A DNA stretch of 64,000 nucleotides from Flavobacteriaceae bacterium (GTDB lineage Bacteria > Bacteroidota > Bacteroidia > Flavobacteriales > Flavobacteriaceae). The DNA lies in contig JAQWJJ010000011.1 in NCBI GenBank assembly GCA_029248405.1, forward strand, positions 124,001 to 188,000, read 5' to 3'. Positions 44,407 through 50,439 of the stretch are shown here, one piece after another; positions within the stretch are counted from its first letter, which is position 1; every line of letters begins with the position of its first letter. The position numbers were made by a program, and so were the translations under genes. The notes beneath the pieces were generated by a model. The model was not told where the DNA came from, did not search any database, and saw only the letters and a list, made by a program, of their open reading frames with translations.

Positions 44407-44820
44407 TTAGTGGGGCAGTCGGTCTTTTAAAAGGCCATAGAGAAATGTGCCGACACTTGACCAAAAAATAACCACCAAGATGGGCCAATAGCCCGCTCCA
44501 GCTAATACAAACATGGGTCCTGGACAGGCCCCAGCGAGCGCCCAACCGAGCCCAAAGATGACGCCTCCCCATAAATAACGACTGATCGTTTTGGTCTTGG
44601 GACTCAAGACGATGGTCTCATCATAAAAAGATTTGATTTTAAATCGTTTTATGGATTGAATCATGAGGATGCCAACAGCCAAAGCCGAGCCAATAATTCC
44701 GTACATGTGAAAGGCGTCAAATTGGAACATTTCATATATGCGGAACCATGATGCGGCCTCAGATTTAAACAATGTAATGCCAAAAATTATGCCGATAAAA
44801 AGATAGATGAGTGTGCGCAT
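44407..44820 (-). CDS. DUF6691 / YeeE-YedE-like membrane protein (half-size)
   Basis: 137 residues, four helices, with the conserved GLGWALAGACPGP motif. Such half-size proteins usually work with a second YeeE half of about 185 residues in thiosulfate or other sulfur-compound transport. That partner gene is not present here. The ATG at 44820 lies within the frame of the truncated MBL gene. Confidence 0.85.
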   Translation of the reverse strand: MRTLIYLFIGIIFGITLFKSEAASWFRIYEMFQFDAFHMYGIIGSALAVGILMIQSIKRFKIKSFYDETIVLSPKTKTISRYLWGGVIFGLGWALAGACPGPMFVLAGAGYWPILVVIFWSSVGTFLYGLLKDRLPH

Positions 44821-45064
44821 TATTTAAAATATTAAAGGGAAGATAAGGTGCACCAGTTTCTTTTGCGAGTGTGACATGGCCACTGACAAAATCGGCGTGA
44901 AAGTGAGTTTCAAAAATATATTTGATTTTTGCCTCTTCTCGCTGGGCGCGATCAAGGTATGGTTTCACTTCTCTTAGGGGATCAATAATGGCAACTTCGC
45001 CGTTACTTTCGATGTAATATGCGCCTTGTGCCAGGCAACCAGTATAAATTTGTTCAACGTTCAT
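44765..45064 (-). pseudogene. Truncated MBL-fold persulfide-dioxygenase-like gene
   Basis: Residues 1-73 match the start of Bacteroidota MBL-fold sulfur dioxygenases: EQIYTGCLAQGAYYIES, AIIDPLREV, ETHFHADFVSGH. After GAP (near 44845) homology stops and the frame runs 26 more residues into the DUF6691 start region. A full member is about 450-470 residues with the rest of the metal ligands and rhodanese domains. The product cannot bind metal properly and is probably non-functional. The likely cause is a deletion that also took the YeeE partner gene. Confidence 0.82.
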
Positions 45065-45090
45065 CTTGTTCTGTTTTTTAATTGATGAGG

Positions 45091-45098
45091 TAAAAGTA
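45091..45098 (-). promoter_or_regulatory. -7 element of the MBL/DUF6691 unit (TACTTTTA)
   Basis: One mismatch to TAnnTTTG. It is 22 bases downstream of the operator at 45121-45134, the same spacing as at the TSUP promoter. Confidence 0.55.
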
Positions 45099-45118
45099 CT
45101 GTCTTGAGCACAACACGA

Positions 45119-45135
45119 CAGTAACTTTGGTTACA
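45119..45135 (-). promoter_or_regulatory. Crp/Fnr-type operator upstream of MBL
   Basis: Palindrome GTAAC-N4-GTTAC at 45121-45134. The 17-base word (TGTAACCAAAGTTACTG on the minus strand) matches the TSUP operator at 15 of 17 positions. Centre about 41 bases before the inferred transcription start. Confidence 0.7.
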
Positions 45136-45194
45136 CAGGGCTGATTTTGCAAAAAAAACATGAGTACCTCTTGAATTGTTGCGGATTTTAGTCA

Positions 45195-45223
45195 AAAAAA
45201 GACCTCTACGGTAGAGGTCTTTT
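45195..45223 (-). terminator. Intrinsic terminator after the TSUP gene
   Basis: GACCTCT/AGAGGTC core (45201-45207, 45213-45219) with AAA/TTT flanks; T run on the minus strand. It separates TSUP from the MBL promoter. Confidence 0.8.
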
Positions 45224-45242
45224 GGACAATGTTTGTTTTTTG

Positions 45243-46055
45243 TTATTGTTTGACAAAAAACTCCATATAGAATATGAATACTGCCATGACGAATATAAAG
45301 TAACCAAATCCTTTTTTGAGTTTGCTGCCATCGATAAAGTTGCTGAGGTAGCTCCCTATAAAAATACCGACAAAAGATAAGCCAGTAAATAAGGCCAAAA
45401 ATATCCAGTCAATTTCCATGGTTAGCGCATCGCCAAAGAAAAACCCTAGTAGAGATTTGAAGGCGATGATGATCAGTGAGGTCCCAACAGCAACTTTCAT
45501 CTCGACATTGGCCAATATCACTAAAGCTGGAATGATCAAAAATCCACCACCTGCGCCAATCATGCCAGTGATGCCACCCACCAAAAGGCCTTCCGCCAAA
45601 ATCAAGGGGTAGTTATAAGTTACCTTACCCTTGTTGGCGTTGTTATTTTCTTTTCGGGTTTTGAGCATGGAAAATGCTGCCGGAATCATTAAGGCGGCAA
45701 AAAGACCAAACATGCCCATTCTTCGGGTAAAATCAAAGTCGCCAAGGGCAAACAAGACATCCGGCAACGCGGGGACGACAAACTTCCTCACAACGGTCAC
45801 ACCGATAATAGCGGGCAGTCCGAAGACAATGGCAGTGCGCCAATCTACGTAACCCTTAAAATGTTGCTTTAAGCCACCGACAAGGGCGCTTGCGCCTACG
45901 ATAAATAATGAGTATGCGGTTGCTACTTTTTCATTTACCGAAAACAAATAAGCCAAAACTGGGACCGCCAGAATCGAACCACCTCCACCGATAAGGCCCA
46001 GTGAGATGCCAATGACCAATGCACTTGCGTAACCAAATATTTCTATTAATGCCAT
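45243..46055 (-). CDS. TauE/SafE (TSUP) family sulfite/organosulfur exporter
   Basis: 270 residues, eight helices in two repeats, each with the family's glycine motif (GLIGGGGSILAVP and GMIGAGGGFLIIP). TSUP proteins move sulfite, sulfoacetate or other sulfur anions. Located between a Crp/Fnr regulator and sulfur-detoxification genes, as in other Bacteroidota. It may remove sulfite from cysteine or persulfide breakdown; the substrate is inferred from context. Confidence 0.88.
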   Translation of the reverse strand: MALIEIFGYASALVIGISLGLIGGGGSILAVPVLAYLFSVNEKVATAYSLFIVGASALVGGLKQHFKGYVDWRTAIVFGLPAIIGVTVVRKFVVPALPDVLFALGDFDFTRRMGMFGLFAALMIPAAFSMLKTRKENNNANKGKVTYNYPLILAEGLLVGGITGMIGAGGGFLIIPALVILANVEMKVAVGTSLIIIAFKSLLGFFFGDALTMEIDWIFLALFTGLSFVGIFIGSYLSNFIDGSKLKKGFGYFIFVMAVFIFYMEFFVKQ

Positions 46056-46076
46056 AATTTAATTTCTAATTCGGGG

Positions 46077-46084
46077 CGAAAGTA
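46077..46084 (-). promoter_or_regulatory. -7 element of the TSUP gene (TACTTTCG)
   Basis: One mismatch to TAnnTTTG, 22 bases downstream of the operator at 46107-46120 and 21 before the ATG. Confidence 0.55.
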
Positions 46085-46094
46085 GGCAGCTCAA

Positions 46095-46658
46095 TCATGT
46101 GCCGCAGTAACCTAGGTTACATAGCTTCTCTAAATTAAGCACTTTTACTGAATTTCTTTGGAGACTGACCTGACCGTTTTGCTCCATCTTCTTGAGTAAT
46201 CGGGAGATGACTACTCTTGAGCTATGCAAGTCGTAGGTCATCTCTTGATGCGTGTTTCGGATCACCTCTTCTTGATTGACCCGCGCTTTTTCTTTGAGGT
46301 AATTAAAAAGCCGCTCTTCCATATTGTCAAATGCGATACTGTCCATAGTATGGAGCATTTCATTTAATCTGTTGTGGTAGCTTTCAAAAACAAAATTGCG
46401 CCAAGATTTGTAGCGCAACGTCCATTCTTCCATTTTTTGAATGGGCACCATGATTAATACGGTGTCTGTCTCGGTAATGGCACGAATTTCACTTTTGGTT
46501 TGTCCCGAAGCATAATTCATGGTCATGGAGCAGGTGTTGCCAATTTCAATCAATTTCGTGTGGGCCGGCACTTCTTTGTAGAGGCCAACCTGGGCAATTT
46601 CTTTAATGAGAGCCGCTTCAAAAATATGGCCATAAATTTCTTTGATTTCTTGAATCAT
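46095..46658 (-). CDS. Crp/Fnr-family regulator with an apparent internal deletion
   Basis: 187 residues. The DNA-binding half is complete: dimerisation helix, HQEMTYDLHSSRVVISRLLKK winged HTH. The N-terminal effector domain is short: KLIEIG (35-40) runs straight into NTCSMT (41-46). Relatives usually carry about 30 residues here (the THMPLLLxGAIKILRED region). Homologues in this setting activate sulfur-detoxification genes; the paired operators nearby fit this. Whether the shortened protein still folds is uncertain. Confidence 0.85.
   Translation of the reverse strand: MIQEIKEIYGHIFEAALIKEIAQVGLYKEVPAHTKLIEIGNTCSMTMNYASGQTKSEIRAITETDTVLIMVPIQKMEEWTLRYKSWRNFVFESYHNRLNEMLHTMDSIAFDNMEERLFNYLKEKARVNQEEVIRNTHQEMTYDLHSSRVVISRLLKKMEQNGQVSLQRNSVKVLNLEKLCNLGYCGT
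46105..46121 (-). promoter_or_regulatory. Crp/Fnr-type operator upstream of TSUP
   Basis: Perfect 14-base palindrome GTAACCTAGGTTAC at 46107-46120, lying in the last codons of the regulator gene. Minus-strand word TGTAACCTAGGTTACTG. Confidence 0.75.
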
Positions 46659-46831: not shown

Positions 46832-47368
46832 CTAGCCCGCACTTTGCTGTGCGTTAATGGGGCTCACCGTGTCATAAGACATGGTTTTGGTCTCGAAGCA
46901 AGCTTTCTGATGGTTGTATACGCGGCAATGGTCTATAGGTTTTGCGTAAACATGCAGTGTCATCGCTCTGCTGCCGGATTTATTTTCAATAGTGTGGTAG
47001 CCCATCTTATCGTGCATATAGGTCAAGCGGCCTTCTGACAGCAAGGCTTCGTTGGTCAAAGTAAACCCATTGGCCACGCGATCAAAACGTTTTTCACTCA
47101 CGACTCCAGAAATGTGGCACATCCAGCAGTCTTGTCCCTGGTGCCCATGCAGCGGTGTTTTTGCTCCGGCATCCCAACAAATCAAAATGAATTCAAAATC
47201 ATCGCTTCTTGTGATGCAATTCCTAGTATAACCGCCAGCAGTCCATGAGGCATGCGCGTCAAATTCAGCGGGTTCGATCTCTATTCGTTTGAGGACACTG
47301 ACTTGTTCTTGGGGCTCAGCTTTTTCAAAACAGTCTATCAATGTCTCAATTGAAGTAATCGGGGTCAT
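46832..47368 (-). CDS. cdo: Cysteine dioxygenase
   Basis: Non-haem iron enzyme that oxidises cysteine to cysteine sulfinate. 178 residues. Iron ligands by pattern: His74 and His76 (LHGHQG) and His125 (GYHTIEN). YTRN at 47-50 holds the Arg that binds the substrate carboxylate. Cys81 and Tyr141 correspond to mammalian Cys93 and Tyr157, which form a thioether cofactor, and Cys148 corresponds to Cys164. Most bacterial forms have Gly at the first position. Divergent from the decarboxylase gene, 167 bases apart. Confidence 0.92.
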   Translation of the reverse strand: MTPITSIETLIDCFEKAEPQEQVSVLKRIEIEPAEFDAHASWTAGGYTRNCITRSDDFEFILICWDAGAKTPLHGHQGQDCWMCHISGVVSEKRFDRVANGFTLTNEALLSEGRLTYMHDKMGYHTIENKSGSRAMTLHVYAKPIDHCRVYNHQKACFETKTMSYDTVSPINAQQSAG

Positions 47369-47495
47369 GTAAGATTTAGTTTTTATAGAAAATAAATAAA
47401 TTAGAGTGACAGTTAAATCACGGTCAATTGGGCATAAAGATAGTCATATTGAGGTAAAAATGAAGTTTTTAAGCCAAAATGAACAAAAAATAGGC

Positions 47496-47503
47496 TAATT
47501 TTG
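47496..47503 (+). promoter_or_regulatory. -7 element of the decarboxylase gene (TAATTTTG)
   Basis: Exact TAnnTTTG match 32 bases before the ATG at 47536. No distinct -33 TTG. Confidence 0.5.
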
Positions 47504-47535
47504 ACTCATTATCAACAAAAACATAAATACTTTCT

Positions 47536-48924
47536 ATGCAACATACTTTGGATAAATTCATGAAGATCATCACGACTTTGCTCCATGATGAATCTGATCA
47601 TCCAGTGGCACAATTTGTCCCGTCCCAAGAGTTGTTTGACACCATTGATTTGTCCTTACAGAAGGAGGGAATTCCAGAGGAAGAATTCGACCAAGTGCTC
47701 ACAGATTTGGTTTTGAAGTCACCGCGAACAGCGACCAATGCTTTTTTTAACCAATTATTTGGTGGCCGCAATGACAAGGCGGTGTTGGGAGATCTTTTGG
47801 CAGTCATGTTGAACAATAGCATGTACACCTACAAGGCTGCAGGGCCTCAAATTGGTGTCGAAAAAGTCGTTTTGCGCGAGGTCTGCCGCCTTATTGGCTG
47901 GGGAGATAAAGCCGATGGGACTTTTGCCCCTGGAGGCTCTATGACAAATTATATGGCTATGGTGATGGCCCGGGATGCCTATGATGCGACGATCCGTTAT
48001 AAGGGTGGGCGTGACAATATGATTGTTTACACCTCTAAAGAATCTCATTACAGCATACCAAAGAATGCCGCGTTCTCCGGAATTGGTCGGGATAATGTCC
48101 GTTATGTACCCACCAATGCTCTTGGACAAATCGACGCAGCAGCACTAGAGCAAATGATCCAGAACGACATCACAAGTGGGGGGCATCCGACTATGGTCAA
48201 TTTGACTGCAGGCACAACAGTTTTGGGGGCATTTGATGCCATCCGACCCATATCAGAAATTTGTCAAGCGCATGATATATGGCTCCATGTGGATGGGGCC
48301 TATTGCGGTTCGGTCTTATTTAGTGACCGTTATAAACACCTGATAGATGGTATAGAATTGGTGGATTCTTTTAGCGTCAACGCCCATAAAATGATCGGGA
48401 CACCCTTGTCGTGTTCGATTATTGTGGCCAAGAATAAGAAGCATTTACACGATTCATTTTCAAACGATGCGAGTTATCTCTACCAAACTGACCACGATGA
48501 ATTTAACTTGGGTAAGACCTCACTGCAATGCGGACGCAGAAATGATGCGCTCAAATTTTGGACGCTTTGGAAAAGTGTCGGAACAAATGGATTGGCCAAA
48601 ATCGTGGACCATCAATTCGATTTAGGGGAGACGGCAAGAGACTACATTAGAGCCCACAAGGATTATACCTTATATAGTTTTGAGGATTCTATTTCTATTT
48701 GCTTCAACTACAGAAACATTCCTGCGCGCGCGTTATGCACTGCGCTCTACGAGCAAGAAGAATTGCTGGTGGGCTATGGGTCGTTTGGCACAGACGAGTT
48801 TGTGCGTTTTGTGACCATCAATGCCCAAAACAGTCATCAAGACATTCTTGATTTTTTCGCAAAATTGGAACGCTTTGTGGCCCATCATCACGAGTTGAGT
48901 GTCCTGGAAGTTCAATCGTCTTAA
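47536..48924 (+). CDS. Group II PLP decarboxylase, probably cysteine sulfinate decarboxylase
   Basis: 462 residues of the CSAD/GAD/aspartate 1-decarboxylase family. PLP Lys285 lies in VNAHKMIGTPL; His171 (SKESHYS) stacks on PLP; Asp253 is in HVDGAYCG. Segments TTVLGAFD, QTD and LQCGRRND align well with animal CSAD as remembered. Glutamate or aspartate decarboxylase activity is the main alternative. The divergent cysteine dioxygenase gene makes cysteine sulfinate the best guess, giving hypotaurine. The symporter gene follows after 6 bases. Confidence 0.85.
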   Translation: MQHTLDKFMKIITTLLHDESDHPVAQFVPSQELFDTIDLSLQKEGIPEEEFDQVLTDLVLKSPRTATNAFFNQLFGGRNDKAVLGDLLAVMLNNSMYTYKAAGPQIGVEKVVLREVCRLIGWGDKADGTFAPGGSMTNYMAMVMARDAYDATIRYKGGRDNMIVYTSKESHYSIPKNAAFSGIGRDNVRYVPTNALGQIDAAALEQMIQNDITSGGHPTMVNLTAGTTVLGAFDAIRPISEICQAHDIWLHVDGAYCGSVLFSDRYKHLIDGIELVDSFSVNAHKMIGTPLSCSIIVAKNKKHLHDSFSNDASYLYQTDHDEFNLGKTSLQCGRRNDALKFWTLWKSVGTNGLAKIVDHQFDLGETARDYIRAHKDYTLYSFEDSISICFNYRNIPARALCTALYEQEELLVGYGSFGTDEFVRFVTINAQNSHQDILDFFAKLERFVAHHHELSVLEVQSS

Positions 48925-48930
48925 GCGCCT

Positions 48931-50439
48931 ATGGATCTGACTAAATTTGTTGTTTTAGGCCTGTATGTGGCCGTGTTGTTTCTGATTGGAATCATCGCGT
49001 CGCGCAGGGTCAAAAACATGAGTGATTTTTATGTAGGAGGCAAGAAATTAGGATTTTGGGCAGTAGCTTTTTCTGCACGTGCCACAGGGGAATCTGGATG
49101 GCTTTTGATAGGCCTTACCGGTATGGGGGCCTTGTCTGGTTTGTCGGCATATTGGGTTGTTGTGGGTGAGGTTTTGGGTGTGGCCATTTCTTGGTGGTTC
49201 ATGGCCAAACGCTTCAAGCGAAAGAGCGACGACTACGGCTCTATTACCATCCCTGATTACCTTGAAAGCCATTTCAAAACCTCCAAAAAAACCATAAGAT
49301 CTGTGGCGGCGACGGTGCTTTCTGTCTTTGTGGTGATTTATGTGAGTTCCCAAATAGATGTCACTGGTAAGGCCTTTGAATCCATGTTAGGCATGGATTA
49401 TTATTGGGGCGCAATTGTTGGCTTTTTGATCGTATTGTCTTACATCTTTGTGGGGGGATTTGTCGCTGCGGTTTGGTCTGATTTATTCCAAGGGCTCCTC
49501 ATGTTTTTTGGACTTGTCTTATTGCCTATAGTGGTTTGGTTCTATATGGACAGTGGTCATGGTATTGTTGAAGGACTTCATATGATTGATCCGAGCCTGA
49601 CCAATATTTGGGGTACTAGTGACGATGTTTATATGAATATTGCCACCATGCTTGGTTTCGCCATGATTGGGTTAGGGTTCTTAGGCTCGCCTCAAGTTTA
49701 TGTGCGATTCATGTCCATCAAAGACGAGAATGAAATTGACAAAGGAAAATGGGTGGCGGTGATTTTTACCTTGCTCACCGATGCGGCAGCGGTAACCATT
49801 GGGATCCTTGGGCGCCTTTACTTTACGCAATCCGGGCAAGATCCTGAGGCAGTCTTGGGTAATGGTGCCGAAAATGTTTTGAGCATGTTGACAGAAAATT
49901 TTCTGCCTCATGTTGTCGCGGCCATTTATATTGCGATTGTCCTTTCGGCGATCATGTCGACCATTGACTCTTTACTAGTTTTGGCCTCTAGTGCAGTAAC
50001 CAGAGACTTTTATCAGAAAATTTATCGTCCCGATCTCAAAGATGAAGATTTGGGCAAACTCTCGCGATGGGTGACGTTGATCATGGCATTTTTAGCCTTG
50101 GTGATTGCGATGGCTATCGCTGTTGTATCCCCCAATCATACAGTGTTTTGGTTAGTGATCTTTGGATGGTCGGGTATTGCGGCATCATTCTGCCCGGTCA
50201 TTATTCTGTCCCTATTTTGGTCAGGATTATCTGAGCGGGGTGCGGTGGCAGCCATGATCACAGGGTTTTTATGCGTCCCGTTTTTTAAGTTTGTCGTGCA
50301 ATCTATGGAAGGCATTGGCCCGTATTTTGTCCAATTGGATGTGTTGGCGCCCTCATTCTTAATCTCTATGGCTGTGGCTTGGGCGGTCTCAAAGCTTTAT
50401 CCCTCTAAACAACCCATCGGTGACAAAATAGGGGCTTAG
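48931..50439 (+). CDS. Sodium:solute symporter (PutP-like)
   Basis: 502 residues, about 13 helices, SSS family. VGGKKLGFWAVAFSARATGESGW and SDLFQGLLMFFG match proline-type symporters, including the sodium-site Ser/Thr region in helix 8-9 (SAIMSTIDSLL). Substrate may be proline, another amino acid, or a compound of the hypotaurine route given its operon. Convergent with the MarR gene; stops interlock at 50436-50439. Confidence 0.88.
   Translation: MDLTKFVVLGLYVAVLFLIGIIASRRVKNMSDFYVGGKKLGFWAVAFSARATGESGWLLIGLTGMGALSGLSAYWVVVGEVLGVAISWWFMAKRFKRKSDDYGSITIPDYLESHFKTSKKTIRSVAATVLSVFVVIYVSSQIDVTGKAFESMLGMDYYWGAIVGFLIVLSYIFVGGFVAAVWSDLFQGLLMFFGLVLLPIVVWFYMDSGHGIVEGLHMIDPSLTNIWGTSDDVYMNIATMLGFAMIGLGFLGSPQVYVRFMSIKDENEIDKGKWVAVIFTLLTDAAAVTIGILGRLYFTQSGQDPEAVLGNGAENVLSMLTENFLPHVVAAIYIAIVLSAIMSTIDSLLVLASSAVTRDFYQKIYRPDLKDEDLGKLSRWVTLIMAFLALVIAMAIAVVSPNHTVFWLVIFGWSGIAASFCPVIILSLFWSGLSERGAVAAMITGFLCVPFFKFVVQSMEGIGPYFVQLDVLAPSFLISMAVAWAVSKLYPSKQPIGDKIGA

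Follow-up and report, generated by a model that had tools for sequence, protein, structure and literature searches.

The window, a 64,000-nucleotide stretch of contig JAQWJJ010000011.1 from a Flavobacteriaceae bacterium (source genome about 92% complete), carries at positions 46832-50439 three intact genes, which encode a cysteine dioxygenase (CDO), a PLP decarboxylase and a symporter of the SSS family. The coordinates of their open reading frames are exact, and the features of the locus are as follows:

46832..47368, minus strand: cysteine dioxygenase type I, 178 aa (Pfam CDO_I, 9e-18; best PDB matches rat and mouse CDO1)
46925..46927, minus strand: codon of Cys148, equivalent to mammalian Cys164 (alignment)
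46946..46948, minus strand: codon of Tyr141, equivalent to mammalian Tyr157 (alignment)
47126..47128, minus strand: codon of Cys81, equivalent to mammalian Cys93, the crosslink cysteine (alignment; invariant in 55/55 CSAD-linked CDOs)
47369..47535, no strand: 167-bp intergenic region between the start codons of the divergent CDO and decarboxylase genes, predicted promoter region
47380..47391, no strand: palindrome TTTTTATAGAAA (consensus TTTCTAYAGAAA), candidate operator; distance to the downstream CDO start 11 nt
47536..48924, plus strand: PLP enzyme resembling cysteine sulfinate decarboxylase (CSAD), 462 aa (Pfam Pyridoxal_deC, 5e-71; best PDB matches CSAD, 3e-75)
47758..47826, plus strand: substrate motif F75-x19-S95-x-Y97 of the decarboxylase (alignment with CDO-linked orthologues)
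48388..48390, plus strand: codon of the PLP lysine K285, in NAHK (NPHK in mammals; alignments)
48931..50439, plus strand: SSS-family symporter, 502 aa, PutP-like, probably Na+-coupled (Pfam SSF, 2e-79)

The layout given in a preliminary description of this DNA, with divergent CDO and CSAD-like genes and the SSS gene next to the latter, was thus confirmed by the Pfam domains, each scoring far over its cut-off, and the exact coordinates. The decarboxylase and SSS genes lie on the plus strand with a gap of 6 bp and are probably transcribed together. An Rfam search of the window returned one tRNA and nothing else.

The product of the CDO gene scores 64.8 bits against the CDO_I domain (curated cut-off 23), and its closest solved relatives are the rat, mouse and human CDO1 enzymes. 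The alignment places the iron ligands at H74, H76 and H125, with H139 also present, while Y47 and R49 occupy the positions of mammalian Tyr58 and Arg60. C81, Y141 and C148 align to mammalian Cys93, Tyr157 and Cys164, as the preliminary description had proposed, and mammalian Ser153 is replaced by Thr137. By these sequence features the protein is a type I (Arg-type) cysteine dioxygenase, predicted to oxidize cysteine, and Cys81 and Tyr141 are the residues for a putative Cys-Tyr crosslink, a pair that not every type I member needs to possess. The iron ligands, H139 and the equivalents of Tyr58, Arg60, Cys93, Tyr157 and Cys164 are kept in all 55 CSAD-linked CDOs, window included; the Ser/Thr position varies. 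Five unlinked CDO-like paralogues of related genomes (L076-L080) all bear Gly or Ala at the Cys93 position and Phe or Tyr at that of the iron ligand His88, and may be inactive as cysteine dioxygenases. Two of them (L078 and L079) lie near a gene for a CRP-type regulator.

It had also been suggested that most bacterial CDOs lack Cys93. This is not clearly true: among 30 Pseudomonadota PF05995 matches read at this position, 14 have Cys and 16 Gly, in an alignment that covers distant sequences and in which single positions may be off. What does stand is that the additional presence of Cys164 is rarer (4/30). In 11 of the 16 Gly forms, Gln stands in place of Arg60, a feature of the Gln-type (mercaptopropionate dioxygenase) group.

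The decarboxylase contains a Pyridoxal_deC domain (PF00282, 240 bits). Its best PDB matches are CSAD (6zek, 2jis) and GADL1 (6enz), ahead of GAD1 and GAD2, with GADL1 nearly equal to CSAD in score, and no NCBIfam equivalog reaches its cut-off for this protein. Residues F75, S95 and Y97 form an exact F-x19-S-x-Y motif. In GAD enzymes the three positions are occupied by Ser, Asn and Phe. The F-x19-S-x-Y motif is described, after Agnello 2013, as the selectivity motif of CSAD (as relayed in PMC4754659). The first position is Tyr in GADL1 (PMC7367687; also seen in the PDB alignment) but Phe in the window enzyme and CSAD. Human CSAD itself also accepts aspartate and glutamate, slowly (PMC8153620).

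Since GADL1, an acidic amino acid decarboxylase of the same PF00282 group, produces beta-alanine from aspartate (PMC7367687), the window enzyme might instead be an aspartate 1-decarboxylase that supplies beta-alanine for pantothenate, with CDO as a chance neighbour. Orthologues do occur in genomes without panD, namely those of a Flavobacteriales family (mostly F/S/A at the three positions) and of Brumimicrobium (Y/S/Y). The window enzyme has neither of these motifs but F/S/Y, its adjacency to CDO is strictly conserved (see below), and panD is present in its own genome (PF02261 match, 7e-49) as well as in 13 of the 14 other CDO-linked genomes of the order (the remaining one is a 67% complete MAG). 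A replacement of PanD by the window decarboxylase was rejected on account of the panD gene in its own genome. Moreover, a profile search of the genome (about 92% complete) found no other PF00282 protein, and with panD present and this enzyme the sole member of its family, the gene is not accounted for by a need for beta-alanine. We consider the aspartate reading very improbable.

The motif was readable in 52 CDO-linked CSADs and was F/S/Y in all of them (two were unread). Decarboxylases with F/S/Y and no neighbouring CDO are nevertheless common, and PF05995 was absent from 11 genomes whose enzyme reads F/S/Y or Y/S/Y and from one with F/S/A, while both carriers searched as positives were found. 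The CDO-less genomes with an F/S/Y orthologue include Marinirhabdus, Aureisphaera, Patiriisocius, Cochleicola and Kordiimonas; the motif alone thus does not fix the substrate. In an independent-pairs test, the association between motif and CDO did not exceed what shared ancestry would give, and the correlation was dropped as an independent proof of substrate after this correction for phylogeny. The F/S/Y motif supports cysteine sulfinate as the predicted substrate without proving it, and the conserved partnership with CDO weighs more.

This partnership was examined in two sets of genomes. In 296 genomes of the window's order, all 15 close CDOs (E below 1e-36) lie directly beside the decarboxylase, an adjacency far above chance, and the SSS gene is also at the locus in 12 of these 15 genomes. 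A scan of named genomes, whose search patterns included NNSMYTYK and which is consequently biased towards Tyr at the third motif position, yielded 80 decarboxylase loci, 40 of them adjoined by CDO, including records of Aureispira, Altibacter, Fluviicola, Crocinitomix and Roseivirga. When the two sets are combined, CDO directly adjoins CSAD at 54/54 linked loci, divergent at 48 and codirectional at six. The survey of CDO-decarboxylase adjacency proposed in the preliminary description thus did not give the outcome named there as refuting, a lack of conserved adjacency (15/15 close CDOs and 54/54 linked loci). SSS genes are present at 33 of the 54 loci, in two arrangements covering both gene orders; some of the other linked loci are truncated by a contig boundary. 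Along supported branches of the decarboxylase tree, the CDO label switches at least 11 times (17 times on the best tree), which indicates that the linkage is not merely one inherited arrangement. This type of CDO is rare in a phylum-wide sample, with any match in 9 and a strong match in 6 of 395 genomes. The bacterial CDO and CSAD genes described by Agnello and colleagues are said to lie often in shared operons.

The SSS protein shares 31% identity with E. coli PutP, and its best NCBIfam match is the sodium/proline symporter PutP at 347 bits, below the cut-off of 515.5. It could accordingly be taken for an ordinary sodium/proline symporter placed at the locus by chance. The sodium-site residues S340 and T341 of PutP are kept, but all aligned members of the family carry G, I and F where PutP has D55, W244 and Y248. 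In PutP, W244 and Y248 are proline-site residues. These replacements and the score below cut-off weaken the PutP identity, and the linkage to CDO-CSAD in 33/54 loci in both gene orders also speaks against a chance placement, so that this reading appears unlikely. Homologues of the SSS gene also occur unlinked, with some copies in genomes without a detected CDO, and linked and some unlinked copies are intermixed in the tree; the substrate may thus not be specific to the CDO-CSAD pathway. The gene neighbours of the unlinked copies examined gave no clue to the substrate. Our best guess is a Na+-coupled importer of hypotaurine, taurine or a related zwitterion.

Downstream of CDO and on the same strand, the window contains genes for a CRP-type regulator, a TauE/SafE exporter and a YeeE-like protein, within 44407-46658:

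44407-44820, minus strand: YeeE-like protein (Pfam)
44765-45064, minus strand: N-terminal metallo-beta-lactamase-fold fragment, between the TauE and YeeE-like genes
45243-46055, minus strand: TauE, a TauE/SafE exporter (Pfam)

As a whole, this region resembles an eroded sulfur-oxidation/export operon. The direct position of these genes behind CDO would fit a route in which cysteine sulfinate is mainly transaminated to sulfinopyruvate and sulfite, TauE acting as the exporter and the decarboxylase as a minor branch. None of the three genes, however, accompanies the module in relatives, either in the order sample or at the named-genome loci; the metallo-beta-lactamase-fold gene between TauE and YeeE is an N-terminal fragment only, and the constant neighbour of CDO is CSAD rather than TauE. 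We rate transamination as the main fate as very improbable. The linked sulfite/sulfur-export genes noted earlier do exist in the window, although their link to the module is not backed by conservation and one of them is truncated; as part of the module they were rejected.

The palindrome at 47380-47391, close to TTTCTATAGAAA, is a possible operator. It stands directly upstream of CDO, a position shared by several near relatives, and perfect or near-perfect copies of TTTCTAYAGAAA stand at a similar position in several of the nearest relatives. With at most one mismatch, the palindrome was found in 11 of 55 upstream regions, against 2.6 expected and a maximum of 6 in 100 rounds of shuffling, for a motif chosen post hoc. 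A broadly conserved operator was not retained, the evidence being a weak, post hoc palindrome of near relatives only.

Taken together, the exact F/S/Y motif, the adjacency maintained through varied gene orders and orientations, the full CDO active site, the presence of panD and the lack of a second PF00282 enzyme make a cysteine-to-hypotaurine module, as first proposed, the best reading of the locus. It is highly probable, on this genomic evidence, that CDO and the CSAD-type decarboxylase, as a two-enzyme pathway accompanied by a transporter, turn cysteine into hypotaurine as in animals. CDO would convert L-cysteine to L-cysteine sulfinate, and the CSAD-type PLP decarboxylase would convert the latter to hypotaurine and CO2, and any cysteate to taurine. 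The SSS protein would most likely mediate Na+-coupled uptake of a small zwitterion such as hypotaurine or taurine, and by synthesis and uptake the cell would thus both make the solute and retain it. No FMO-like hypotaurine oxidase was found in the genome (about 92% complete), and hypotaurine is therefore the predicted end product; a further oxidation to taurine, chemically or by another enzyme, is possible, though unsupported. The three genes, with their catalytic and motif residues and their conserved linkage, are read directly in the DNA; the substrates are inferred, as is the role of the product, for which a compatible solute or antioxidant is more likely than pure sulfur disposal.

The likeness to the animal pathway had been pointed out correctly, though such a pathway is already known in bacteria, including marine flavobacteria. 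PMC8153620, PMC12585060 and PMC4754659 cite Agnello et al. 2013, who reported the bacterial CDO and CSAD route, and a cysteine route to taurine in marine cyanobacteria and marine flavobacteria is mentioned in PMC12585060 with reference to Agnello 2013 among others. The CSAD of Synechococcus sp. PCC 7335 has been expressed and purified, according to PMC8153620. The window locus resembles the pathway of Agnello 2013, as summarized in these citing papers, in its CDO with an F-x19-S-x-Y CSAD and in the same predicted chemistry, and differs from it in the divergent genes and the SSS symporter after CSAD. Compared with mammalian CDO1 and CSAD, it shares the CDO iron ligands, Tyr58, Arg60, Cys93, Tyr157 and Cys164 and, in CSAD, the F/S/Y motif and the PLP lysine, while sequence identity is moderate, Ser153 is replaced by Thr137, NPHK by NAHK, and an FMO-like oxidase was not found in the genome. 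The present analysis adds how widespread and how strict the linkage is, a symporter conserved with it, the complete set of mammal-like CDO residues in all linked members and a variant clade without panD. With it, the bacterial hypotaurine route reaches into many aquatic Bacteroidota and gains a transporter partner that can be tested; the carrier bacteria may be sources of hypotaurine or taurine in aquatic sulfur cycling.

The variant clade is the Flavobacteriales family mentioned above (f11; L038-L067), whose CSAD orthologues are mostly F/S/A, with Ala and rarely Ser or Tyr at the third position. In its genomes panD was found in 0/29 and panC in 17 of the 18 tested, and no CDO was detected. 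The simplest reading is that these CSAD-family enzymes replace PanD as aspartate decarboxylases, and this Ala variant may be a fresher lead than the window module itself. In Brumimicrobium (L120, L123 and L134), the enzymes have a GADL1-like Y/S/Y motif in genomes without panD and CDO, which suggests a second, separate shift to aspartate. Exceptions to this pattern of motif and panD are Algimonas (F/S/A with panD) and Kordiimonas aquimaris (F/S/Y without panD). Through these natural variants (F/S/Y beside CDO, F/S/A without panD, Y/S/Y in panD-less Brumimicrobium), the rules that govern substrate choice in this enzyme family can be tested directly. A more comprehensive scenario, in which CDO-CSAD-SSS is a dedicated Bacteroidota unit for (hypo)taurine accumulation with a new transporter, and the change from Tyr to Ala at the third position retuned the enzyme to an aspartate decarboxylase in the panD-less Flavobacteriales family, can be offered tentatively, as we would sooner doubt than expect it in full.

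The decarboxylases of Alphaproteobacteria (Kordiimonas, Caulobacterales, Hyphomonadaceae and Algimonas; loci L116, L121, L125-L127, L138, L142, L143, L148, L154 and L156) are nested among Bacteroidota sequences and bear Tyr or Ala at the third position. Their placement suggests that the alphaproteobacterial copies were acquired by horizontal transfer.
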